Source of the DNA: Clostridia bacterium
GTDB lineage: Bacteria > Bacillota > Clostridia > Oscillospirales > CAG-272
Reading direction: 5' to 3'
Assembly: GCA_017537175.1 (NCBI GenBank)
Contig: JAFYLH010000029.1
Coordinates: forward strand, 1 to 64,000
Length of the DNA: 64,000 bases
The notes beneath the pieces were generated by a model. That model was given only the letters and a program-made list of their open reading frames with translations. It did no database searches and was not told where the DNA came from. Shown here piece after piece: positions 3,301-43,841 of the stretch (positions within the stretch are counted from its first letter, which is position 1; every line of letters starts with the position of its first letter). The translations under genes were made by a program, and so were the position numbers.

Positions 3301-4251
3301 ATATGCAACATGGTCAAATGTGTAGGAAGCAACTGCTGTGGAAACGATAATGAAACCGTTGGAGATAGAACGCTCGGAACCGTCGGAGGGGGAGTTGGTG
3401 ATAACGAAATCATCCTGACCCTCAGGCTTACAAGCATAAGTACCGGATCCGCCGCCATCGAGGTGAAGTGCCTCAACACAACCGAGGTCAACCATTACCT
3501 GAGCCTGCTCAAGAAGGGTAAGACCGATAGACTTGGGAGCCTGGTTACCGTCTGCCATCATAAGGATAACATCACCTTCAGCGGTGATACCGATGGTCTG
3601 ACGGGGATACTTCTGGGGATTGGTCTTGGACCAGTAACCGTCCTCGTATACCTGACCGTCCTTTACAATATGAAAGTAACCGCCGATAGCCTCTTTGATC
3701 TGGCCCTTATATGATGAATACTCACCCTTACCGCCGATCATAACGCTGCCGTCATTGAGAACAGCAAAGAAGGAACGGGAGTTACCCTCAGCCTCGTTGG
3801 TAACGTCGATGCCGTTCATAACGAAAGTACCTGTAGGCTTACCTGTGGTCATGTTGTAGTAAGAGGAGTTGATACCTGCTACTACTGTACCCTGATAATA
3901 GGGGTCGCCTGCTGCTGCCTTATTGTTAAATGCAGCAACCTGCTCGGTAAGCTTGGACATACCGTAAACGGTAGGGTCCATGTTCTTATAGGAGGCAAAG
4001 AGCTTGACTGTGTCAACGCTCATGTCTGCCTTGGTGACAAACATTCTTACCTGGTCACCGTTCTTATCGTACACTGTATAGTCGTTCAGCGTAACACCGG
4101 GAGCCAAGGTAGATTCCTTGTCGATTGCGACAGAAAGCTGTGAATTAGTAAACTCAGCACTTGCAGCAAATGTGCTGAATGGTATCACACCAATAAGCAT
4201 AAGTACTGTTATAACCGCAGCTGTCCATCTCTTGAAATTGAAAGTTCTCAT
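1..4251 (-). CDS. Secreted phosphodiester glycosidase (NAGPA/DUF2233-like) with C-terminal wall-binding-type repeats, partial
   Basis: The reading frame is open from an ATG at 4251 to the window edge, giving 1417 codons without a stop; the C-terminus lies outside. AGGAG precedes the ATG. Residues 1-30 form a signal peptide (MRTFNFKRW then a hydrophobic run to TFAASA). Residues about 55-330 match the phosphodiester glycosidase family: RQTIGITAEGDVILMMADG, then LHLDGGGSGTYA, the family's DGGGS signature. A middle part has bacterial Ig-like segments and beta-rich modules. A Cys/His module (CGTHKG, then CTTAGYTG, then FCAACN) sits near residue 1010. The end is rich in WYG, DGKYY and ENGYPVAKGLV units, like choline- or glucan-binding repeats. 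It probably removes or transfers sugar phosphodiesters at the cell surface. It lies just downstream of the polysaccharide operon but has its own leader. The precise substrate is unknown. Confidence 0.85.
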   Translation of the reverse strand, partial: MRTFNFKRWTAAVITVLMLIGVIPFSTFAASAEFTNSQLSVAIDKESTLAPGVTLNDYTVYDKNGDQVRMFVTKADMSVDTVKLFASYKNMDPTVYGMSKLTEQVAAFNNKAAAGDPYYQGTVVAGINSSYYNMTTGKPTGTFVMNGIDVTNEAEGNSRSFFAVLNDGSVMIGGKGEYSSYKGQIKEAIGGYFHIVKDGQVYEDGYWSKTNPQKYPRQTIGITAEGDVILMMADGNQAPKSIGLTLLEQAQVMVDLGCVEALHLDGGGSGTYACKPEGQDDFVITNSPSDGSERSISNGFIIVSTAVASYTFDHVAYEVENDYMTPGTSVNVAVSGVSSTGNAADVPADITYVVDNGTYADGVFTAGDAVGDATITAMYNGQAVGSVTLNVVLPDAIAFSSAEMTVPYGKTVALGIDATYGVKEVAIKASDFTFALSNSAVGTIDGFNFTACAEDPAVTESDISAVLNGTELTANAKIILGKGSEVVYDFEDGTSVVVFDETPGTKYNYVWPETTQEIVDATTGEVHSGNYALSGVVDYSNSLESGYMKTSMYSTEQRVFKNAKKVGIWIYIDDEFDGLWARWTLQSVTFDANGNPVFGSSINSNNMDNTVGGTGVVSSFTEPGWHYLWADVSAYEAVGWKANSAMMQFYLSDRDGSAFNYVSRENRNIPATYQFYFDDITVDYSSAVDDREAPIFGGVTYAVEGMPDAAALNNQTVNTGKVTFAAKLADNTTLTNATGINADSVKAYIDGIETKCTYTGGVVTADVTGLDNGKHQVKFAAEDKMGNYASAFGYITVAADDSGSTVKLVPHDADLTYPKLGSIYWMDLVATDIQTVKSVEATIDLDNNSTWQLDHMTVATGFEASYTVDERFNVATVTVTKTGDVDATGEAALVSMPVRVWTLKEGYVYPNGTKAGAQAYTLRQFTTSLNEYWGMAVIADIDRGVLVRVDDTIDSFSGDGVKCDTEMWFCGTHKGNVAGAADYYNSWDKGHYHTAEAVADVAATCTTAGYTGRTFCAACNSVVDWGTTIAAAGHDYAVTDGVLKCECGEVFNGVYTDGKTYVDGVMLSGWVDGKYYADGVALTGIAAVDGVYYNFGDDGVSKGKYTGLVEIDGKYYYAKLGTLTAGWFDIDGAWYYFLPETLEAAEGSVTADNGITFDFVDGKVQSVVWEDWYSFKRCWYGPSYYYNTSKNVKYLMVEIDGDIYFFNSAGCMQKGVVVSHESNRFEYFAYDCGTDGKGQLYTGVAEDMYFENGWQVRELRLAYANGEYVFVKNTNKVADTCTVDLVGELTGLVFADGEVYYVENGYPVAKGLVQASDGNYYLITSTLKAVKNCWYGMNETHLNGYSLATGIYWFYEDGRMQVKEGIYREKNGNICYYENGYPVAKGLVQDTDGSYYLFTSSKKAVVNSWYGMNETHL

Positions 4252-4375
4252 GGGGTCTAACTCCTTTTTAATTTATTTATATATTGCCGTGTGGCTTTAT
4301 ATATCATTGTTTTTTCTGCGGGCAGGCTTGTCTGTCCGCGAGCTTTTAAAGTTATAGATATGACGGGATAGCTTT

Positions 4376-5587
4376 TTACATCGAGCAAAGCTCCCGATAC
4401 AAGCTTATATAGTCCTTTATCCGGTCATTTTTGTTAAAATTCTCTTCTGCGTATGCTCTGCAGACCACAGAAATTTCGGATTTATCCTTATTGCACAAAT
4501 CTTTGATTGCTGACGATACCGCTTGGATATCGCCCACATCCACAACTCTACCGCAACCGTCACCTACAAGCTCGGGATTTGCGGTAGAATCATAGCAAAT
4601 AATCGGTGTTCCGCAGGCCAGTGCCTCGGCAGAAACCTTACCGAAGCTCTCCTCACGGGAAAGGGTAACGAAAACATCCGCCATACTGTAATACTGCGCC
4701 AGCTCGTTCACCGAATCGGTCACCGGTATATGCTTCACATTTTTACTTAATTCCACCTCAGGACTCAGCTTGCCGATAAGAAGAATAACATATTCATCCG
4801 ACAAAAGCTCTGAAAGTCTGATAAAATCACCAAGGCCCTTGGAATCATCCCAGAATGAGGATACTCCCAGTATAACCTTTTTATTTTTCAAGCCCATACG
4901 CTCTCTTACCGCAACTGCTTCGTTGCGAGGGTAAAAAACATCTATATCTATCCAATTATATATGCGTCTGAGTATTGCGGCACAGGATAAATAGGATTTT
5001 TGAGCCTCAGAGGTTATCCAATCCGACACGCCCACCACCGCCAAACGCGGGATTTTTTCAAACAGCTCTTTCTTTTTTCTCCACATCGATGGGGTAGCAT
5101 CTATAAACCAGCTCTTGTTATCCTTTTTGAGTCTGGGACATTTGTAACAACCATCCTTCCATCTGTAGCAGCCGTCTACAGTATAGTGACAGCATTTACC
5201 GGTATAGAACCAGCAATCATGAAGTGTAAGAACAGTAGGAATATCTTTGTCGGCAAGATATTTCAAAAGAATCGGATAACTGATGTAATTACCATGCATA
5301 TTTCTTAATTGAACCACATCAGGCTTCAGTTTATCAATATAGCTTATAAGTCTTTTGGTTGAAGCTACAGAAAAATAACCTTGTTTTCCGGACAGTCTTG
5401 ACATAAATCCGTGAAATCTGATATCCAAAGAAGAACTCATACGGTGAGTATTTTTGTCATCGGTGGAGCCGTAAGCGTAAACTGTATAACAGCTATCCTC
5501 GGTACCGTTGATATAATCGGACAGTTCTTTACAGGTCCTGCCCGTACTACCCTTGCGGTATACGGCATTGATCTGAAGTATCTTCAT
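4376..5587 (-). CDS. GT4-family glycosyltransferase
   Basis: 403 aa; likely transfers a nucleotide-activated sugar to a lipid-linked glycan at the inner membrane face. It opens with MKILQINAVYRKGSTGR, the N-terminal Rossmann strand and donor/acceptor loop of GT4 enzymes. The C-terminal half has VILGVSSFWDDSKGLGDF and the EX7E-type donor site around LSREESFGKVSAEALACG. The ribosome-binding site GGGAGG overlaps the end of the preceding EpsG-like gene (stop at 5591), so translation is probably coupled. It is the last gene of the polysaccharide operon. A Cys-rich stretch (CHYTVDGCYRWKDGCYKCP) in the middle recurs in some wall-polysaccharide GT4 enzymes. Acceptor specificity cannot be read from the sequence. 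Confidence 0.9.
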   Translation of the reverse strand: MKILQINAVYRKGSTGRTCKELSDYINGTEDSCYTVYAYGSTDDKNTHRMSSSLDIRFHGFMSRLSGKQGYFSVASTKRLISYIDKLKPDVVQLRNMHGNYISYPILLKYLADKDIPTVLTLHDCWFYTGKCCHYTVDGCYRWKDGCYKCPRLKKDNKSWFIDATPSMWRKKKELFEKIPRLAVVGVSDWITSEAQKSYLSCAAILRRIYNWIDIDVFYPRNEAVAVRERMGLKNKKVILGVSSFWDDSKGLGDFIRLSELLSDEYVILLIGKLSPEVELSKNVKHIPVTDSVNELAQYYSMADVFVTLSREESFGKVSAEALACGTPIICYDSTANPELVGDGCGRVVDVGDIQAVSSAIKDLCNKDKSEISVVCRAYAEENFNKNDRIKDYISLYRELCSM

Positions 5588-5590
5588 TCA

Positions 5591-6649
5591 TCATACCTCC
5601 CAGAAAAACTTATAGGGGAATGTATCAAGTATGTTACCCGACGGTGCGTGATCAAAGAAATAGAAAAGAAAATACAAGGTCATTATATATCTTGATATCA
5701 CAACTATCTTATCCCACTGGGGCGCGCGGTACTTTATGATCTTGGGTATGAGCAACGGAATGAACATAAGGTAATAGTAGTTCATTCTCATTGCCAATGC
5801 ATGTAATGGCGCGAACATCTGAAGTGCTACCGACAGTAGCAAAAAGTTCCTCAGTCCTATTGTCTCGGCATCCATCCGGCTTTCGTCCACTACAGCAAAG
5901 GAGTATATGGCAAACATAACAAACAGCACCAGCATCATATAAGCACCGGTGTTTGATATTTCTCCCTCATACATACTTGCCAATACTCTGTTCAGAAATG
6001 TAAATATGGGACGGTTAAACAGGAATATTATCAACATAGCGGGTACTACCGCATACAGCCATTTTCTTGTAATCTTTGCGTGAAACAGCGGATACATTAT
6101 AAACAGCATAAATGCCGACTTATGAAACAGCATAGCAAGAATACAAACAAGTATGAAAAATACAAGCTTCTTTTTCTTGACAAATTCATATGCGACAAAG
6201 CCCAATGCGATGGATATAGCCTGTCGCAATCCCGAAAACACCATTACAAATGTAGGCATAATGAGAAACAGTGATATAGTCAGAGGAACATCCTCTATTG
6301 TTTTTGAGTATGTATACCATATAGGCAATATCGACAGCAAGCCGGTTATAACTATTACCCACTGGAACTCGGTTGTAAACAAACCGACAAACTGGTTCAG
6401 CAGGATATATCCCTGTTCAACTCCGGACTTGGATGCATTGGCAAAAGAAGTCCTTATATAACTGTTAAACAAACTGTAATATCCGGCAAGATCTCGCCCT
6501 ATAGTCATATGCCGTAACACAAGCATCAAAGTCAGGATAAGAAAGAATACGCCTATAACATTTCTTCTGCGCTTTTCTTCTGGCTGATTCTCTATACGGA
6601 ATACATTAAGTATTATCGGCAAAAAGATCAAAGCATAATACGGTATCAA
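5591..6649 (-). CDS. EpsG-like polysaccharide polymerase, membrane protein
   Basis: 352 aa, almost entirely hydrophobic, with about ten predicted membrane segments starting at IPYYALIFLPIILNVF. The motif RHMTIGRDLAGYYSLF near residue 67 resembles the conserved R-x5-D-x2-Y loop of EpsG/Wzy-type polymerases, which join repeat units at the outer membrane face. The start is a TTG at 6649: it sits 8 bases after a strong GGGAGG site, and no ATG is available nearby. That ribosome-binding site lies in the last codons of the GT2 gene upstream, so the two are translationally coupled. No Wzx flippase or Wzz chain-length regulator is visible in the cluster. Polymerase is preferred over O-antigen ligase because of length and motif, but this is not certain. 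Confidence 0.75.
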   Translation of the reverse strand: MIPYYALIFLPIILNVFRIENQPEEKRRRNVIGVFFLILTLMLVLRHMTIGRDLAGYYSLFNSYIRTSFANASKSGVEQGYILLNQFVGLFTTEFQWVIVITGLLSILPIWYTYSKTIEDVPLTISLFLIMPTFVMVFSGLRQAISIALGFVAYEFVKKKKLVFFILVCILAMLFHKSAFMLFIMYPLFHAKITRKWLYAVVPAMLIIFLFNRPIFTFLNRVLASMYEGEISNTGAYMMLVLFVMFAIYSFAVVDESRMDAETIGLRNFLLLSVALQMFAPLHALAMRMNYYYLMFIPLLIPKIIKYRAPQWDKIVVISRYIMTLYFLFYFFDHAPSGNILDTFPYKFFWEV

Positions 6650-6652
6650 AGC

Positions 6653-7603
6653 TTATCCTCCCTTAACCTTGATCTTTCTGAACAGCGAATAGTATATCTT
6701 TCTCGCCACACTTCTCATATCTCCGTACACCATATACATACGGACCTTAAGACTTTCCTTTGAGGTAAATACCTTCATTTTTAAAAGTCTTTTTACTATC
6801 TTTTTGTTCTGATATTTGGCATTATGCAGAGCATAGTGGAATATCAGCCTGTTTTCATCTGTGGTCACCCTTGTAAGCTCGGGAATAAGAAATTCCGCCA
6901 TCGCCTCGCTGTCGCTGTGGAACAGCGCCACACCGGAACGGGTAAGCTGACCGCCGTGTATACGGCTTTTAACACCTATATGGGGACAGATCAGCATAGA
7001 AAAACCCTTGAGAAAGATCTTTGACCACATAAAGCCGTCCTGGTTGAAGCGAAGACGCTCATCAAAGCCTCCGCATTTCTCAAACACATCTCTGTGTATC
7101 AAAAGAGTACAGCCGTTATATGATCCAACACTATACATTCTTTTAAGCGCCTTGTCCCAGGTAAGTATGCTTGCCTCGGTAGGTACGGAGGAGGGCTTTT
7201 TGCTGTTTATGGGTTGGGAATCGGGTCCGATAAACTCGGTAGAGGATTTGACTATCATTCTCTTATCCTCGTATTCCGAGAGGAGACGAATCTGCTTTTC
7301 CACCTTGTCGGGGGTATAAGCATCATCATGGGAAAGCCAGGAGAAATATTCTCCCTTCATATTACGGATACCCTCGTTGAGCGCGGTGGAAACACCACCG
7401 TTTTCTTTGTGTATATATCTTATCTTATCGCCGTAGGAACGGGCAACACGATCAGTCTCACCCTCATCTCTTGATCCGTCGTTTACAACGATGACCTCGA
7501 TATTTTTATAGGTCTGACCAAGCGCGCTGTCTATAGCCTCCCGCATATAGTTGGCTCCGTTATATACAGGAATTATTATTGATACCAAGGGTTCAAAGCT
7601 CAT
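6653..7603 (-). CDS. GT2-family glycosyltransferase
   Basis: 316 aa. The N-terminus FEPLVSIIIPVYNGANYM and the following VIVVNDGSRDEG are the classical GT-A nucleotide-binding core. SWLSHDDAYTPDKVEKQ carries a DxD-like HDDA metal site near residue 95, and FNQDGFMWSKIFLKG is the acceptor-side ED/QD region. I place the start at the ATG at 7603, 7 bases after GAGGA, rather than at the TTG four codons upstream, which has no ribosome-binding site. The start overlaps the end of the upstream GT4 gene by 11 bases. It acts in the polysaccharide operon; donor and linkage are unknown. Confidence 0.9.
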   Translation of the reverse strand: MSFEPLVSIIIPVYNGANYMREAIDSALGQTYKNIEVIVVNDGSRDEGETDRVARSYGDKIRYIHKENGGVSTALNEGIRNMKGEYFSWLSHDDAYTPDKVEKQIRLLSEYEDKRMIVKSSTEFIGPDSQPINSKKPSSVPTEASILTWDKALKRMYSVGSYNGCTLLIHRDVFEKCGGFDERLRFNQDGFMWSKIFLKGFSMLICPHIGVKSRIHGGQLTRSGVALFHSDSEAMAEFLIPELTRVTTDENRLIFHYALHNAKYQNKKIVKRLLKMKVFTSKESLKVRMYMVYGDMRSVARKIYYSLFRKIKVKGG

Positions 7604-8714
7604 ATATTTCCTCAAGTTCTTTCTTTACACTTTCATATCCGTACTGTCTTGAAAATTCAAGAGCATTCTTAGAAAACTCTTCTGCCTTTGCCGGATCCGA
7701 CAGTAAGGTAAGTATCGATTCTGCCATAGCACCGTAATCGTTTATATTAACGAGATAACCGTTTTTACCGCCGTCAATAAGCTCGCGGTGGCCTCTGTTG
7801 TCTGTCAGTACACAGGGATTACCCGACATCTGTGCCTCAATAACGTTCAGCCCCAGACCCTCACGCTTACTGCATGCCACAAGAATATCGCTTATATGCT
7901 GATAATCCTGAAGATTGGTAACATAACCGAGCATCGTAATGCTCTTTTCCAGTCCCAGGGAAGCGATAAGCGCTTCAAGATTTTCCTTTTCGGGTCCGTT
8001 ACCTGCCAAAAGCAATTTTGTATCCGGATACTTTTTCAGTATCTCCGGCATTACCCTTATTATCATCTGCTGGTTTTTGTTGGGCAGCAGCTCTCCGATA
8101 CAGAGAAGGATTTTTTCATTTTCGCCAAAGCCCATCTCACAGCGGAGCTTCTTTTTTTCATTGGGTGTGGCGGGAGTATATCTTGCTTCGTCTACACCCA
8201 CGCCGTGAATACGGTAAACGGGACAGCCGAACTTTTTCTTTGCTGTTTCGTAGTCCTCGCCCACTATTGTAATAAGCTTATCGGTCTTATGAGCAAAGAG
8301 CCTTTCGATGGGGTAGTATATCATCCAGTTCTTTTTTGAAGCTCCCTTGTAAAAGTGGAAGCCGTGAGCTGTATAAAAGACCTTTGTCCCCTTTTTTCTC
8401 GACTTCTTTGCCGCAAGACGGGTAACGATACCGCCCATAGGGGTATTACAGTGGATTACCTCATATTCTTCCTCAGCAAGGATTTTTTTAAGACCGCGAA
8501 AGGCTTTGATATTATCAGGACTCTTTGGTGATCTTGAAAATGGCAGATCAAAGACCTTTTCCGCAAAATCCAGTTGCAGACCGTTTTTCTCGGCTAAATT
8601 GTTTCTTGCGGCAACATGTATCTCGTACCCTTTGCTGTGGAGAAGCTGTGCAAGGGGTCTGTGAAACTGACATATATGGCTTTGTACCGTTGCTACCAGA
8701 AGTACCTTTTTCAT
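7593..8714 (-). CDS. GT4-family glycosyltransferase (EpsD/PelF-like)
   Basis: 373 aa. The N-terminus MKKVLLVATVQSHICQFHRP and GYEIHVAARNN are typical of EpsD-like enzymes. VIHCNTPMGGIVTRLAAKK and FYTAHGFHFYKGA form the acceptor-side domain, and ILLCIGELLPNKNQQMIIR begins the GT-B donor domain. The donor site contains VACSKREGLGLNVIEAQMSG with the two conserved glutamates. It is probably an N-acetylhexosamine-type transferase by resemblance to EpsD, but that substrate is inference. It lies between the PP-loop enzyme and the GT2 gene in the operon. Confidence 0.9.
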   Translation of the reverse strand: MKKVLLVATVQSHICQFHRPLAQLLHSKGYEIHVAARNNLAEKNGLQLDFAEKVFDLPFSRSPKSPDNIKAFRGLKKILAEEEYEVIHCNTPMGGIVTRLAAKKSRKKGTKVFYTAHGFHFYKGASKKNWMIYYPIERLFAHKTDKLITIVGEDYETAKKKFGCPVYRIHGVGVDEARYTPATPNEKKKLRCEMGFGENEKILLCIGELLPNKNQQMIIRVMPEILKKYPDTKLLLAGNGPEKENLEALIASLGLEKSITMLGYVTNLQDYQHISDILVACSKREGLGLNVIEAQMSGNPCVLTDNRGHRELIDGGKNGYLVNINDYGAMAESILTLLSDPAKAEEFSKNALEFSRQYGYESVKKELEEIYEL

Positions 8715-21332: not shown

Positions 21333-21411
21333 GACACCGCAGGTGTCATTTCATGGCAAAGCCATTTCACGACCGAAGGTCATTTCACGAAAGCCAAAGG
21401 CTTTCATTTCA
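21333..21411. repeat. Hairpin array with ATTTCA spacers
   Basis: Four different mini-palindromes follow one another: GACACC-GCA-GGTGTC, TGGC-AAA-GCCA, GACC-GAA-GGTC and GAAAGCC-AAA-GGCTTTC. They are separated by a constant ATTTCA or ATTTCAC. There is no open frame. The palindrome sequences differ while the spacer is kept, which is the opposite of a CRISPR. Confidence 0.8.
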
Positions 21412-21424
21412 TTATCAATAAAAC

Positions 21425-38471: not shown

Positions 38472-38500
38472 TTGACAGATAATTTGGGATGTGGTATAAT
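38472..38500 (+). promoter_or_regulatory. Perfect consensus promoter of the SLH multidomain protein
   Basis: TTGACA (38472-38477), 17-base spacer, TATAAT (38495-38500). The next ATG is at 38507, at the position expected for +1, implying a leaderless message. Confidence 0.8.
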
Positions 38501-38506
38501 GGTCGT

Positions 38507-41071
38507 ATGTTTATGTTTAAAAATCACTTCAAAAAATTAACATCCTTAATACTTGTCTGTATCATGCTTATGGGCATACTGCCTCTTGGTGTCAGCGCAA
38601 TAAACACCGACCAGGTAACTGCGTCTATGACCAATCTTAAGAACACGGTATTCCCCGACGGCTGGTACTGGTGCGGCGGAGATCCCTCAAAGGCTATCCC
38701 CTCAAGCGGCTGCGGCAGCAGATATAACTGCATGTGCAACAACTTTAACTACTCCTACCAATGTCACGGCTTTGCCCTGTATGTGGCCAACCTCGTTACA
38801 GGCTCTTATCCTGCGGTAAGACTTGCGGGATACAAAAACGGTCTTGTCAGCGGCAGCTGGAAATGCTATACCGTATCCGGCATCGGTAAGACCGCCCTAT
38901 GTGGTCTGGGACTCCGTCCCGGCGACATAATAAGAGCCGCCTCCGGTGCGGATTATGCGGACGGCCATACCGTCATAGTATGGAAGGTAGAGGGAACCAC
39001 CGTATACTTCGCCGAGGCCTGGGGCTCTGTATATTCCAAGATAAACTGGGGCGGCTTTAATGCAGAGTTCACCTCTATGGAGCAAATATGCAATGCATAT
39101 ACCTATGTTGCCCTCTGGCGCAACAATGCAATAACCCCCGGTACGGGAGAGTGTCCCCACAGCTATAAGGAGGGCGTTGAGACAGCCCATCCCCACCGTA
39201 AGTATACCGCCTGCATATACTGTCAGAAGACCGAGTATACAGGCAAATTTGAAGTACTGTCCGACTGTGTATGCTGCAGCGGCATTCACAGCTATGAGCT
39301 TTCAAACGAGGAGATGCATCCTCATAAGCAGATAAGGACCTGCAGCTCCTGCGGTCAGTTTGATTATACGGGTAACACCACGGTAATTCCCGCCTGCTCC
39401 CTCTGTCAGGGCCTGCCCTATGACCTCAATGCAGGCTTTGAAAAGGATATATGTAATATCGGTGAAACGGTAAGCCTTGCTTTTTCGGGTGAAAATACCG
39501 TAAGGCTCAAGGCTGTTATCCGTAAGGATGGAATAAAGTATACCGAGTATGACTGCCCCGTGGGTACCTCTATATCCTTTGTACCCCATGAGGTGGGTAA
39601 TTATATCGCCACGGTAACTGCATATTCAGAGGAGGGCAAGAGTGCCTCTGTGACCACAGCGCCCCTGTCTGTCAGAGCTCCCATTACATCGGTTGCTATC
39701 GATGATTCAAGATACTATATCACATACGGACTCAGCCTTGCATATGAGGATGCCCTTACATTCAGCGAATCCCGCGGACTTATACTGACCGAGTATACCG
39801 ATAACGGCTTTACCGCGTTCTTTGATGCGGTAGAGGGGCTTAAGAGCGAGTATAAGGAAGAAAGCATCTATACCTATTTCCCTCTGCCCCTGTCCTATTA
39901 TGAGGCGGCTGATTTTGCAAGACATACCGACGGAGTCTTAGCCTCTGCCGAGGATGCCGAGACAGAGCAGCTTTTGGTCAAGCTTTGTCAAAGGACAGAT
40001 TCCGACGGTATCATCACAGGCTCAAGCGATGCCGCTGAAGAGGGTGTGTGGATAAGTGAAGAGGGCGAGGTTCTGAGCTACTTTAACTGGAATCTCTCTT
40101 ACACCGGAGAATATGACCGCTACAAGAGCTGTCTCTTTATGTTCCCCGGCGGAAGCTTTACCGACAGCTATGTCCTGCCCGGTGATTATCACGGCTTTGT
40201 TGTCAAGAGCCAAAGCGACTTTGAATATACCGACAACGGTGACGAAACACTTACCCTCATCCGTGTAGCGGCAATAGAAAGCTCGGCCTTGTCCATACCC
40301 GCAGAGCATAAGGGTATGCCTGTAACCGCCATCGGTGCAAGTGCCTTTGCCAACGGTGTATACGGTGAGATATACATTCCCCCGTCGGTGATCCATATAG
40401 AGCCGGGTGTGTTTGCGGATGTAAACATCGGCAGTATCCTTGTGGACAGAGATTCAGAGATACATAGACTGCTTATCGAATATAACATAGATGAAGAAAT
40501 AGACATCCGCTTCCGTTTCCCCTTTACCGATGTGGCACAGAGTGCGTGGTACTATGAGGGTATAGATTACTGCTATCAGAGCTCATATATATCCGGTACA
40601 TCAGCCACCACATTTTCCCCTAACAGCAATGTAACAAGAGAACAGTTCGTTATGATGCTTGCCAATATTGCAGGAGCAGATCTTACGGCATATGCCGATG
40701 CCGAAACCGGTATGAGCGATGTGCCTATGGGCAGATGGTATTCATCTGCCGTTGCCTGGGCAGTAAGCGAGGGATATGTGTCGGGTGTAGGTGAGGGCGT
40801 GTTCGGACTCGGTCAGAACATAACCCGTGAGCAGCTGGCAAGACTTATATTCCTCTATACCGAAAAGCAGGGCGGAGATATCCAAGCAAGAGCAGATCTT
40901 ACTGTATATACCGACGAGGCTGCTGTTTCGTCATGGGCATATGACAATGTAAGCTGGGCTGTTGCCAAGGGACTTATCAGCGGTATGAGTGCCACAACTT
41001 TGGGCGCAAGAAGCACCGCAACCCGCGCACAGGCAGCAAGAATATTTATGCTGTTTGACAGTATGGAATAA
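38507..41071 (+). CDS. SLH-anchored multidomain surface protein: Cys-protease/amidase-like, lectin-like, LRR
   Basis: 854 aa from the ATG at 38507; the ATG at 38489 lies inside the promoter and is rejected. Signal peptide: KKLTSLILVCIMLMGILPLG. Residues about 45-200 look like a papain-like amidase/peptidase (CHAP or C39 type): SYQCHGFALYV with Cys86, DGHTVIVWK with His154, and FAEAWG. Two Cys/His modules follow (HPHRKYTACIYC; HPHKQIRTCSSC), then an Ig-like segment. About 455-560 resembles a C-type lectin domain (SYYEAADFARHTDG, GVWISEEG). About 590-660 is a BspA-type leucine-rich repeat (AIGASAFANG, IHIEPGVFADV). Three SLH domains end the protein (FTDVAQSAWYYEGID onward). A wall-associated peptidoglycan- or peptide-cleaving adhesin is inferred. 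Confidence 0.82.
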   Translation: MFMFKNHFKKLTSLILVCIMLMGILPLGVSAINTDQVTASMTNLKNTVFPDGWYWCGGDPSKAIPSSGCGSRYNCMCNNFNYSYQCHGFALYVANLVTGSYPAVRLAGYKNGLVSGSWKCYTVSGIGKTALCGLGLRPGDIIRAASGADYADGHTVIVWKVEGTTVYFAEAWGSVYSKINWGGFNAEFTSMEQICNAYTYVALWRNNAITPGTGECPHSYKEGVETAHPHRKYTACIYCQKTEYTGKFEVLSDCVCCSGIHSYELSNEEMHPHKQIRTCSSCGQFDYTGNTTVIPACSLCQGLPYDLNAGFEKDICNIGETVSLAFSGENTVRLKAVIRKDGIKYTEYDCPVGTSISFVPHEVGNYIATVTAYSEEGKSASVTTAPLSVRAPITSVAIDDSRYYITYGLSLAYEDALTFSESRGLILTEYTDNGFTAFFDAVEGLKSEYKEESIYTYFPLPLSYYEAADFARHTDGVLASAEDAETEQLLVKLCQRTDSDGIITGSSDAAEEGVWISEEGEVLSYFNWNLSYTGEYDRYKSCLFMFPGGSFTDSYVLPGDYHGFVVKSQSDFEYTDNGDETLTLIRVAAIESSALSIPAEHKGMPVTAIGASAFANGVYGEIYIPPSVIHIEPGVFADVNIGSILVDRDSEIHRLLIEYNIDEEIDIRFRFPFTDVAQSAWYYEGIDYCYQSSYISGTSATTFSPNSNVTREQFVMMLANIAGADLTAYADAETGMSDVPMGRWYSSAVAWAVSEGYVSGVGEGVFGLGQNITREQLARLIFLYTEKQGGDIQARADLTVYTDEAAVSSWAYDNVSWAVAKGLISGMSATTLGARSTATRAQAARIFMLFDSME

Positions 41072-41074
41072 TAC

Positions 41075-41269
41075 TTTTGCATAGCAAAAACTTCACTTAC
41101 CGAAAGGTAAACTTCACTTGCCAAAAGGCAAACTTCACCAACTGTAAGTTATATCAAATTTTAAGTTGGTGAAGTTCAGGCAGAAGCCTGAGTGAAGTTG
41201 TGATTAACATCACAGTGAAGTTTTTATTTTTTATAAAAATAAAAGTGAAGCTTTCACCTGCGGCGAAAG
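41075..41269. repeat. Mirror-organised hairpin array with AACTTCAC/GTGAAGTT spacers
   Basis: Eight different mini-palindromes are separated by ACTTCAC at 41090, 41111 and 41132, then by its complement GTGAAGT at 41169, 41192, 41215 and 41245 (last copy ends GC). Palindromes include TTACC-GAAA-GGTAA, TTGCC-AAAA-GGCAA, CAGGC-AGAA-GCCTG and GTGAT-TAAC-ATCAC. At the centre ACTTCACCAACT pairs with AGTTGGTGAAGT as a 12-bp stem. It lies between the SLH protein and polA and has no open frame. Confidence 0.85.
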
Positions 41270-41280
41270 TAAATTAATTA

Positions 41281-41309
41281 TTTACAATACTTTATTTTTG
41301 GTGTATAAT
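41281..41309 (+). promoter_or_regulatory. Promoter of polA
   Basis: TTTACA (41281-41286), 17-base spacer, TATAAT (41304-41309). AAGGAAG lies 5-6 bases before the ATG at 41343. Confidence 0.8.
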
Positions 41310-41342: not shown

Positions 41343-43841
41343 ATGAAAAAATTACTTGTTATCGACGGAAACTCCATACTCAACCGTGCCTTTTACGGTA
41401 TAAGGCCCTTATCCACCAAGGAGGGACTGCCTACCAATGCGGTATACGGTATGACAAATATCCTGTGGGGAAAGTTAGAGCAGTATAAGCCGGACTATGC
41501 GGCAGTTGCCTTTGACCTCAAAGCCCCTACCTTCCGTCATAAAGAGTATGACCAATATAAAGCCAACCGCCACGGTATGCCCGACGAGCTTGCACAGCAG
41601 TTACCCTATGCAAAGCAGATGTGCGCAGCGCTGGGTATGGCGGTATTATCCCTTGAGGGCTACGAGGCCGACGATATCCTTGGTACGCTTGCCGATGCGG
41701 CATCAAAGCAGGGTGACTTTGCATATGTTCTTACAGGTGACCGCGACTCGCTGCAGCTTATAGGGGACAATGTAAATGTCCTCCTTGCCACAAACAACGA
41801 TACCCTGACCTTTGACACCTCCGCTTTTGTAGAAAAATACGGTGTTACTCCCGATACATTTGTAGATGTCAAGGCTCTTATGGGTGACTCCTCGGATAAT
41901 ATCCCCGGTGTCCCCGGCATCGGAGAAAAGACCGCACTTAAGCTTATTTCCGAGTATCACGATCTTGATAATCTTTACGAAAAATTTGAGGACTCCGACC
42001 TTACAAAGGGTGTTAAAAATAAGCTCCGCGAGGGTCGTGATTCTGCATACCTCTCCCGTTTTTTAGCTAAAATAAACTGTGAGGTCCCCCTTGGCATAGC
42101 CCTTGACGATATAGCCTACGAGGGCTTTAAAGCAGAGGAGCTGAGCGAGCTTCTGACAAAGCTTGAATTTTCCAATATGCTCTCAAAATTAAATGTCAAG
42201 CCAAAGACGGTGGAGATAGAATGCAAGGCAGAGGATATTTGCGACATTAACTCTGTTTGTTCTGCAGGCAAGTGGGCAGTCACCCTTGATGACGAGCATA
42301 TATATGCCTCCGACGGCGAAAGGGTTTATTTTTCAGTTTATAATAAAGAGAGCCTTGAAAAACTGTTTTCAAGTGATTGCGAGATCGCGGTATTTGACTC
42401 AAAATCCACCCGTCATATGCTGTATGATATGGGTATAAATGCCACTAATATCGCTTTTGACATTATGCTTGCGGCATACGTGCTCAATGCCTCCGACCGT
42501 GTATATAAGGCAGAGGATGTGGCAATTGCCTATTTAGGTGCCGCCTTTGAGGACAAGCAGAGCGAGGCAATGGCTCTTTATAAATTATGGGTTGAGCTTG
42601 ACCAAAGGCTCACCGATAAGGAAAGAGAATTATATTTTACAATAGAGCTTCCCCTTGCAAAGGTGCTTTGCGATATGGAGCGTCAAGGCTTTAAGGTTGA
42701 CCTTGAGGGACTTAAAAAATACAACCAAATGCTTACCGAAAAGGCAAAGGAGCTCGAAGAGGATATATATGAGCTTGCAACACGCAGCTTTAATATCAAT
42801 TCGCCCAAGCAGTTGGGAGAGATACTCTTTGATGTTCTGGGACTTCCCGCCTTTAAAAAGACCAAGAGCGGCTACTCTACCAATGCCGAGGTACTTGATA
42901 AGCTCAGACCCTATCATCCCATAATCGACAAGATCCTTGAATACAGACAGATAACAAAATTAAATTCCACCTATGCGGTAGGACTTTTGAATGTTGCCGA
43001 CGAAAACGGCAAGATTCACACCACCTTTAACCAGACCATAACCGCAACAGGCAGACTCTCCTCCACCGAGCCAAATCTTCAGAACATTCCTGTCAGAACA
43101 GAGCTTGGCAGAGAGCTGAGAAGATATTTTATTCCCACCGACACAAATCATGTTCTTATAGATGCCGACTATTCACAGATAGAGCTGAGGCTCCTTGCGG
43201 CAATATCGGGAGACGATACAATGACCGAGGCGTTTAAGTTAGGCATTGACATCCATACCCTTACCGCTTCACAGGTGTTCCGCATATTCCCCGAGGCTGT
43301 TACCCCTGAGCTTCGTAAAAGAGCAAAGGCGGTGAACTTTGGTATAGTTTACGGCATCGGAGACTACTCCCTTGCTATGGATATCGGTGTTACCAAGCGA
43401 CAGGCGGCTGACTATATAAGAGGCTATCTTGACACCTATCCGGGTATAGACAGCTATCTTAAAAATATAGTCGAGGAGGCTCACGAAAAGGGCTATGTAA
43501 CCACCCTGCTCGGCAGAAGAAGATATATCCCCGAGCTTTCCTCCTCCAAAAAGCCTATGGTAAAATTCGGTGAGCGAGTAGCCATGAACAGCCCCATACA
43601 GGGAACTGCCGCCGATATAATAAAGTTGGCAATGATAAACACAGCCTCCCGTCTTGAAGCGCAATTACCCGAAGCAAGGCTGATACTTCAGGTACACGAC
43701 GAGCTTATAGTAGAAGCCCCCGTCGAAAAAGCACAAAAGGCTATGGAAATTCTCATCCACGAAATGGAGAACGCATACAATTGCTCTGTTCCCCTTGAGG
43801 TAGAGGCCAATATGGGAGCGTGCTGGTATGACGCAAAATAA
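41343..43841 (+). CDS. polA: DNA polymerase I
   Basis: 832 aa from the ATG at 41343 (MKKLLVIDGNSILNRAFYG); the frame is open 15 codons further but that stretch is promoter and leader. The 5'-3' exonuclease domain (1-290) has its metal Asp residues (VIDGNS, YEADDILGTLA, TGDRDSLQL, MGDSSDNIPGVPGIGEK). The middle 3'-5' exonuclease fold lacks the usual DxE motif (WAVTLDDEHIY), so proofreading is probably lost, as in many Firmicutes. The polymerase domain has motif A DADYSQIELRLLA, motif B RKRAKAVNFGIVYGIGDYS and motif C LILQVHDELIVE. It fills gaps in repair and removes Okazaki primers. Its 3' end is part of a palindrome. Confidence 0.97.
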   Translation: MKKLLVIDGNSILNRAFYGIRPLSTKEGLPTNAVYGMTNILWGKLEQYKPDYAAVAFDLKAPTFRHKEYDQYKANRHGMPDELAQQLPYAKQMCAALGMAVLSLEGYEADDILGTLADAASKQGDFAYVLTGDRDSLQLIGDNVNVLLATNNDTLTFDTSAFVEKYGVTPDTFVDVKALMGDSSDNIPGVPGIGEKTALKLISEYHDLDNLYEKFEDSDLTKGVKNKLREGRDSAYLSRFLAKINCEVPLGIALDDIAYEGFKAEELSELLTKLEFSNMLSKLNVKPKTVEIECKAEDICDINSVCSAGKWAVTLDDEHIYASDGERVYFSVYNKESLEKLFSSDCEIAVFDSKSTRHMLYDMGINATNIAFDIMLAAYVLNASDRVYKAEDVAIAYLGAAFEDKQSEAMALYKLWVELDQRLTDKERELYFTIELPLAKVLCDMERQGFKVDLEGLKKYNQMLTEKAKELEEDIYELATRSFNINSPKQLGEILFDVLGLPAFKKTKSGYSTNAEVLDKLRPYHPIIDKILEYRQITKLNSTYAVGLLNVADENGKIHTTFNQTITATGRLSSTEPNLQNIPVRTELGRELRRYFIPTDTNHVLIDADYSQIELRLLAAISGDDTMTEAFKLGIDIHTLTASQVFRIFPEAVTPELRKRAKAVNFGIVYGIGDYSLAMDIGVTKRQAADYIRGYLDTYPGIDSYLKNIVEEAHEKGYVTTLLGRRRYIPELSSSKKPMVKFGERVAMNSPIQGTAADIIKLAMINTASRLEAQLPEARLILQVHDELIVEAPVEKAQKAMEILIHEMENAYNCSVPLEVEANMGACWYDAK

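Follow-up and report, generated by a model that had tools for sequence, protein, structure and literature searches.

A mirror-symmetric hairpin array between an SLH-domain gene and polA in a Clostridia genome, and its relatives with constant spacer words around the Gut-1 RNA

The analysed window is a stretch of 64,000 nucleotides from an uncultured gut Clostridia bacterium (assembly GCA_017537175.1, contig JAFYLH010000029.1). The gap between the stop codon of a gene encoding an SLH-domain protein and the predicted polA promoter contains an array of about 200 bases, starting with TAC, ending with GTAA and consisting of eight hairpins and seven spacers. Below, this array (41072-41272) is called the target, the genome of the window G000, and loci fetched for comparison have L-numbers. 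The features are as follows; the G004 copy is the second full copy, described below.

38489-41071, plus strand: upstream gene encoding an SLH-domain protein (860 aa); its stop codon TAA (41069-41071) is 3 nt ahead of hairpin 1
41072-41074, plus strand: left terminus TAC, which with GTAA at the right end marks the outer limit of likeness to the G004 copy
41075-41089, plus strand: hairpin 1, TTTTGC-ATA-GCAAAA
41090-41096, minus strand: spacer word, rung 1 (GTGAAGT on the minus strand)
41097-41110, plus strand: hairpin 2, TTACC-GAAA-GGTAA; other sequence in the G004 copy
41111-41117, minus strand: spacer word, rung 2
41118-41131, plus strand: hairpin 3, TTGCC-AAAA-GGCAA; other sequence in the G004 copy
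41132-41138, minus strand: spacer word, innermost on the left
41139-41168, plus strand: central hairpin (4), part of a 12-bp perfect stem together with the two inner spacers
41169-41175, plus strand: spacer word GTGAAGT, innermost on the right
41176-41191, plus strand: hairpin 5, TCAGGC-AGAA-GCCTGA; conserved in the G004 copy
41192-41198, plus strand: spacer word GTGAAGT; GTGAGGT in the G004 copy
41199-41214, plus strand: hairpin 6, TGTGAT-TAAC-ATCACA; identical in the G004 copy
41215-41221, plus strand: spacer word GTGAAGT
41222-41244, plus strand: hairpin 7, TTTTATTTTT..AAAAATAAAA; conserved in the G004 copy
41245-41251, plus strand: fourth right spacer, imperfect, GTGAAGC; GTGAAGT in the G004 copy
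41252-41268, plus strand: hairpin 8, TTTCACC-TGC-GGCGAAA, followed by the right terminus GTAA (41269-41272)
41269-41285, plus strand: outer palindrome GTAAATTAATTATTTAC, overlapping the -35 box of the polA promoter
41281-41309, plus strand: predicted polA promoter, TTTACA-17-TATAAT, 11 of 12 consensus matches
41343-43841, plus strand: polA (DNA polymerase I)
21343-21414, minus strand: second member of the superfamily in the window, one-directional, with the word GTGAAAT; 53.6 bits with the Gut-1 model, above the cut-off

The left spacers of the target are AACTTCAC and the right spacers are GTGAAGTT. The left words ACTTCAC start at 41090, 41111 and 41132 with a period of 21, and the right words GTGAAGT at 41169, 41192 and 41215 with a period of 23; the imperfect fourth word GTGAAGC starts at 41245, 30 bases beyond the previous one. 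The centre is a 12-bp perfect stem formed by the inner spacer pair and CAACT/AGTTG. The coordinates and the form of the array (eight hairpins, 12-bp central stem) given in a preliminary description hold on inspection of the sequence, as do its periods of 21 on the left and 23-30 on the right; however, one of the four right spacers that it took to be identical carries a mismatch.

The RNA fold of 41070-41285 has an energy of -79.4 kcal/mol (z -10.05), and none of 200 shuffled sequences folds as well. The minus strand of the target folded as DNA gives z -10.03. In the predicted minimum-energy structure, nested rungs form between the three left spacers and the three right GTGAAGT words, the hairpins standing flush against these rungs, and thus each level is predicted to be a four-way junction. 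A multibranched fold with paired spacers and with palindromes as side arms had been proposed earlier, and it coincides with this predicted structure. Other arrays fold at z from -3.8 to -8. The target is predicted to fold as a ladder of hairpins. Only one terminator-like site is predicted within it, on the minus strand.

The left half of the target on the minus strand is aligned end to end by the Rfam model of Gut-1 (RF01706) with 36.9 bits (E 4.8e-6), below the curated cut-off of 50 bits. The architecture is the same over all 77 model positions, the word being UGAAGU and not UGAAAU. Despite the score, the target is plainly related to Gut-1. Weinberg et al. 2010 (PMC2864571) presented Gut-1 as a non-coding RNA from uncultured bacteria of the human gut and graded it as certainly an RNA. 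It consists of three hairpins separated by a UGAAAU-type word, and the left half of the target aligns to this layout. On the other hand, the target has the word GTGAAGT, is mirror-symmetric and contains eight hairpins, and the elements to which it belongs are multicopy and use many spacer words. Gut-1 appears to be a fragment of these larger elements. Among open-licence papers, literature searches for the spacer word, RF01706 and hairpin repeats returned only the original Gut-1 paper.

The one-directional array at 21343-21414 is the only Rfam match at the gathering level across the whole window. G000 as a whole contains 42 Gut-1 matches at E<=1, ten of them above the cut-off, and matches above the cut-off were found in 24 of 39 relatives; in 14 control genomes there was no such match. 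The pattern of three GTGAAGT words occurs in 10 of the 39 genomes, compared with none for the same pattern read backwards. The lack of a similar array elsewhere in the genome, which the preliminary description named as evidence against itself, is not what is seen, since G000 contains dozens. In an even sample of the phylum (299 genomes, stricter filters) a strong Gut-1 match was present in only three genomes, including G000, which leaves a narrow known range.

Within an array the spacer word is constant, and the hairpins between its copies are different. The words observed among the Gut-1 matches are GTGAAAT, GTGAAGT, ATGATAT, GCGATAT, TCGATAT, AGCTAAATT and TGATGATATAC; genome G015 additionally has GTGATAT, ATGAATT and ATGATGT. 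The Gut-1 model catches several families of one architecture. Two layouts are observed. In one-directional arrays a hairpin is followed by about four word-hairpin units and then by RTTAAGG and a terminator-like hairpin. In mirror arrays three word-hairpin units, a centre and three complementary word-hairpin units follow each other. In the target, which is of the mirror type, the words point outward, as is otherwise seen only in the G004 copy. The word TGATGATATAC is used by the arrays at L043, L046 and L049. At L049 the array is part of roughly 1 kb of additional DNA that the orthologous locus of the sister species G003 lacks, and it adjoins what appears by eye to be the end of a serine recombinase gene.

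A simple array detector yielded 110 distinct arrays in the fetched loci, a count that covers stretches around Gut-1 matches, excludes arrays missed by the Gut-1 model and may include a few ordinary repeats. They contain 278 hairpins, of which 262 are different. Stems of at least 4 bp are present in about 75% of segments, a value biased upward by the detector's own requirement for hairpins, versus about 11% of shuffled segments. In the window a detector of repeated words with hairpins reported four places, and none in ten Markov-shuffled windows. Two of these places (3875-3944 and 6083-6131) consist of short repeated words and are possibly coding repeats. Since G000 is a draft in 39 contigs, a chance pattern or an assembly artefact had to be considered. 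It is hardly conceivable: arrays of the same kind occur in independent assemblies of several genera and in IMG/VR contigs, neither the shuffled windows nor the backwards pattern produced any match, and the independent copies refute it.

The arrays are located preferentially at gene 3' ends. Both neighbours could be called for 50 arrays of G000 and G003; of these, 48 are in gaps with at least one gene 3' end, and only two are in divergent gaps, compared with 16 of 56 control gaps (p=0.0007); these counts are based on simple longest-ORF gene calls and on loci chosen by Gut-1 matches. For most arrays the distance from a stop codon to the array start is no more than about 60 nt. In many genera, a good number of the mirror arrays with the words GTGAAAT and GTGAAGT directly follow tRNA or tmRNA genes and their terminators. 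Genome G005 contains a tRNA-Trp gene followed by four arrays (L051:1392-2480) with the words GTGAAAT, ATGATAT, GTGAAAT and ATGATAT in alternation; immediately ahead of each array stands a hairpin with a T-tract. The L051 locus also contains a 260-nt unit repeated at 99% identity, 513 bases apart. Mirror arrays adjoin tmRNA genes at L053 and L055 in two genomes, and others adjoin tRNA genes for Trp, Gln, Ser, Arg, Thr, Leu and His.

A single further full copy of the target type is present among the 196 genomes of the family, in G004 (RGIG1815). It is about 83% identical to the target and is situated at a different locus, behind a rubrerythrin gene. At the copy site G004 is identical to JAFQHD010000090.1, a Clostridia bacterium from goat cecum; an exact scan of GTDB contigs with TGTGATTAACATCACAGTGAAGT retrieved only this contig, the one of the G004 copy. 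Hairpins 5-7 are conserved between the two copies, whereas two left hairpins and the outermost ones differ in sequence and are still hairpins. In G003 the SLH gene and polA are in the same order, with only a plain terminator between them, and behind the rubrerythrin gene both G000 and G003 have only a terminator-like hairpin. With an array in one genome and a terminator alone in relatives, each of the two sites has seen a gain or a loss of the element. Copies at non-homologous loci and empty orthologous sites, both observed here, are traits of mobile elements. The ends TAC...GTAA are visible in the two full copies of the target type, with no clear target-site duplication. An 8-bp repeat AATACTTT flanking the target was considered as such a duplication and rejected because the G004 copy has only the left one.

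In the handful of orthologous pairs examined, the spacers keep their sequence and the hairpins keep only their structure. At L044/L141 all spacers are unchanged and the stems are altered on both sides, with compensation; the 3-kb locus is 85% identical overall. Even the first hairpin, which overlaps the stop codon, has changed there (TAA/TGA with TTA/TCA). L015/L117 shows an A/G difference in one word and an entirely different sequence in one hairpin. The L032/L115 arrays match in their last hairpin, in GTTAAGG and in the terminator hairpin, but the word is ATGATAT in one species and GTGAAAT in the other; this is suggestive, at most, of a switch of the word at an orthologous locus, the G000 array being partly degenerate. 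Finally, at L041/L132 the same site carries arrays of different words with no resemblance. The preliminary description stated that spacers and palindrome form are kept and palindrome sequence is lost. For the superfamily this agrees both with the hairpin counts and with the orthologous pairs, but it holds only in part for the closest copy, that in G004, where hairpins 5, 6 and 7 are nearly identical and the left-hand and outermost ones differ.

One possibility is that the array is a structured RNA serving the host, either as the 3' UTR of the SLH mRNA or as a separate small RNA that would protect or process the transcript end, with the words as protein-binding sites. The grading of Gut-1 as an RNA, the position of arrays at 3' ends, the RNA fold at z -10 and the retention of spacer and fold by orthologous arrays after speciation are all consistent with this. 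However, the closest species has no array at the SLH-polA locus, the second copy lies behind an unrelated gene, and some orthologous sites carry an array of another word family (L041/L132). Moreover, many mirror arrays follow tRNA terminators, where little transcript is expected. We consider this explanation rather unlikely.

Neutral growth of palindromes would need neither recognition nor function: DNA polymerase template switching at hairpins (quasi-palindrome correction) would keep hairpins perfect and homogenise the complementary spacers of an array. It accounts for the use of one word per array, for perfect stems of free sequence and for long perfect palindromes that reach into coding sequence, as at L041 and in the array-free rubrerythrin terminator of G000. 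It does not fit the recurrence of the same words at dozens of loci in many genera while the hairpins differ, nor the near-identical mirror elements behind different tRNA genes, and one-directional arrays, which lack complementary words, also keep the word. This makes it an unlikely origin of the arrays. At L041 (2440-2700) the terminator palindrome extends about 16 bases back into the coding end of the neighbouring gene, and an inverted copy of the gene end is flush with the array. The idea that hairpin 1 arose by snap-back copying of the gene end was dropped, since terminators without an array in these genomes likewise reach back to or into coding sequence.

The reading to which we assign roughly even chances is that the array is one copy of a dispersed, miniature palindromic element, non-coding and non-autonomous, which inserts at hairpins of gene 3' ends or just behind them and is recognised via its word. 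Its fixed part would be the spacer word of 7-9 nt repeated through the element, and its variable part the hairpins between the words. We infer that a partner recognises the word, most likely a protein that binds DNA or RNA and comes from a mobile system or from the host. In single-stranded DNA or RNA the hairpins would present the words by forming the ladder of four-way junctions, and the spread may proceed, as in REPIN and BIME elements, by copying into hairpin sites at terminators. On this reading the target would fill the stretch from the SLH stop codon to the polA promoter, which in the sister species contains a plain terminator, and once in place it probably acts as an RNA-end or insulator structure.

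REP elements are located at gene 3' ends, as are the arrays. Like REP, BIME and REPIN elements, the arrays are multicopy, dispersed, intergenic short palindromes of alternating orientation, often in inverted pairs (PMC2817692, PMC3116915). A REP/BIME or REPIN system mobilised by a RAYT (Y1) transposase, or the target of a retroelement, would explain dispersed palindromes at gene 3' ends and head-to-head pairs, and several word families per genome are comparable to several REP classes. However, in G000, which is 93% complete, there is no match to Y1_Tnp or to RVT_1. Across 39 genomes the number of arrays correlates neither with Y1_Tnp (Spearman 0.17, p 0.30) nor with RVT_1 (Spearman 0.01, p 0.96). 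As a driver, a RAYT/Y1 transposase was rejected since it is absent from G000, G018, G026 and G034, which carry 29-43 matches, and a reverse transcriptase since it is absent from most array-rich genomes. The retroelement or recombinase link proposed initially thus finds no counterpart in these searches. Furthermore, in REP, BIME and REPIN elements the palindrome sequence is conserved, whereas here the spacer word is conserved and the palindromes vary, with stems being replaced. Mobilisation of this type is very unlikely. The elements are best read as REPIN/BIME-like in behaviour and as lying outside that family, since neither palindrome conservation nor RAYT presence applies to them.

Group IIC introns are retroelements that target terminators and attC sites. 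Their landing site directly behind terminator hairpins is similar to that of the arrays; unlike in these introns, no reverse transcriptase match exists in G000. Rfam searches of the window and of nine array loci yielded no intron match. The main text of a human-microbiome survey reports 250 candidate RNAs on both strands, most of which it suggests to be terminators or REPs (PMC8040213). That main text does not name Gut-1, and its passages compared here do not describe arrays with a shared spacer word.

If the arrays are elements recognised via the word, the Rfam family Gut-1 is recast as a fragment of a large multi-word tribe of dispersed palindromic elements, so far only partly described, at the 3' ends of genes and tRNAs in animal-gut Clostridia. 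The rule of a constant linker and a free hairpin reverses the REP pattern and points to a recogniser. A further step, which is possible but for which we have considerable doubt, is that they form a new class of elements, spacer-coded hairpin arrays, where the repeated word would be the recognised identity and the hairpins free-sequence scaffolds, with one cognate protein per word and with words that can change at a locus. Bacteria of this order and IMG/VR contigs would then contain a larger alphabet, with Gut-1 as one of its words. As not all arrays use the same word, and a switch of word seems to have occurred at one orthologous locus, a cognate partner for each word is a testable idea.

One GTGAAAT mirror element had no blastn match in phage and plasmid collections. 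IMG/VR contigs contain arrays, most raw pattern matches there being ordinary coding or tandem repeats. The IMG/VR contig L358 contains two GTGAAGT mirror arrays (3837-8058), whose centres of about 60 nt are inverted copies of each other. One of them starts 7 nt past a stop codon, and the first word of the other supplies the stop codon of the upstream frame.
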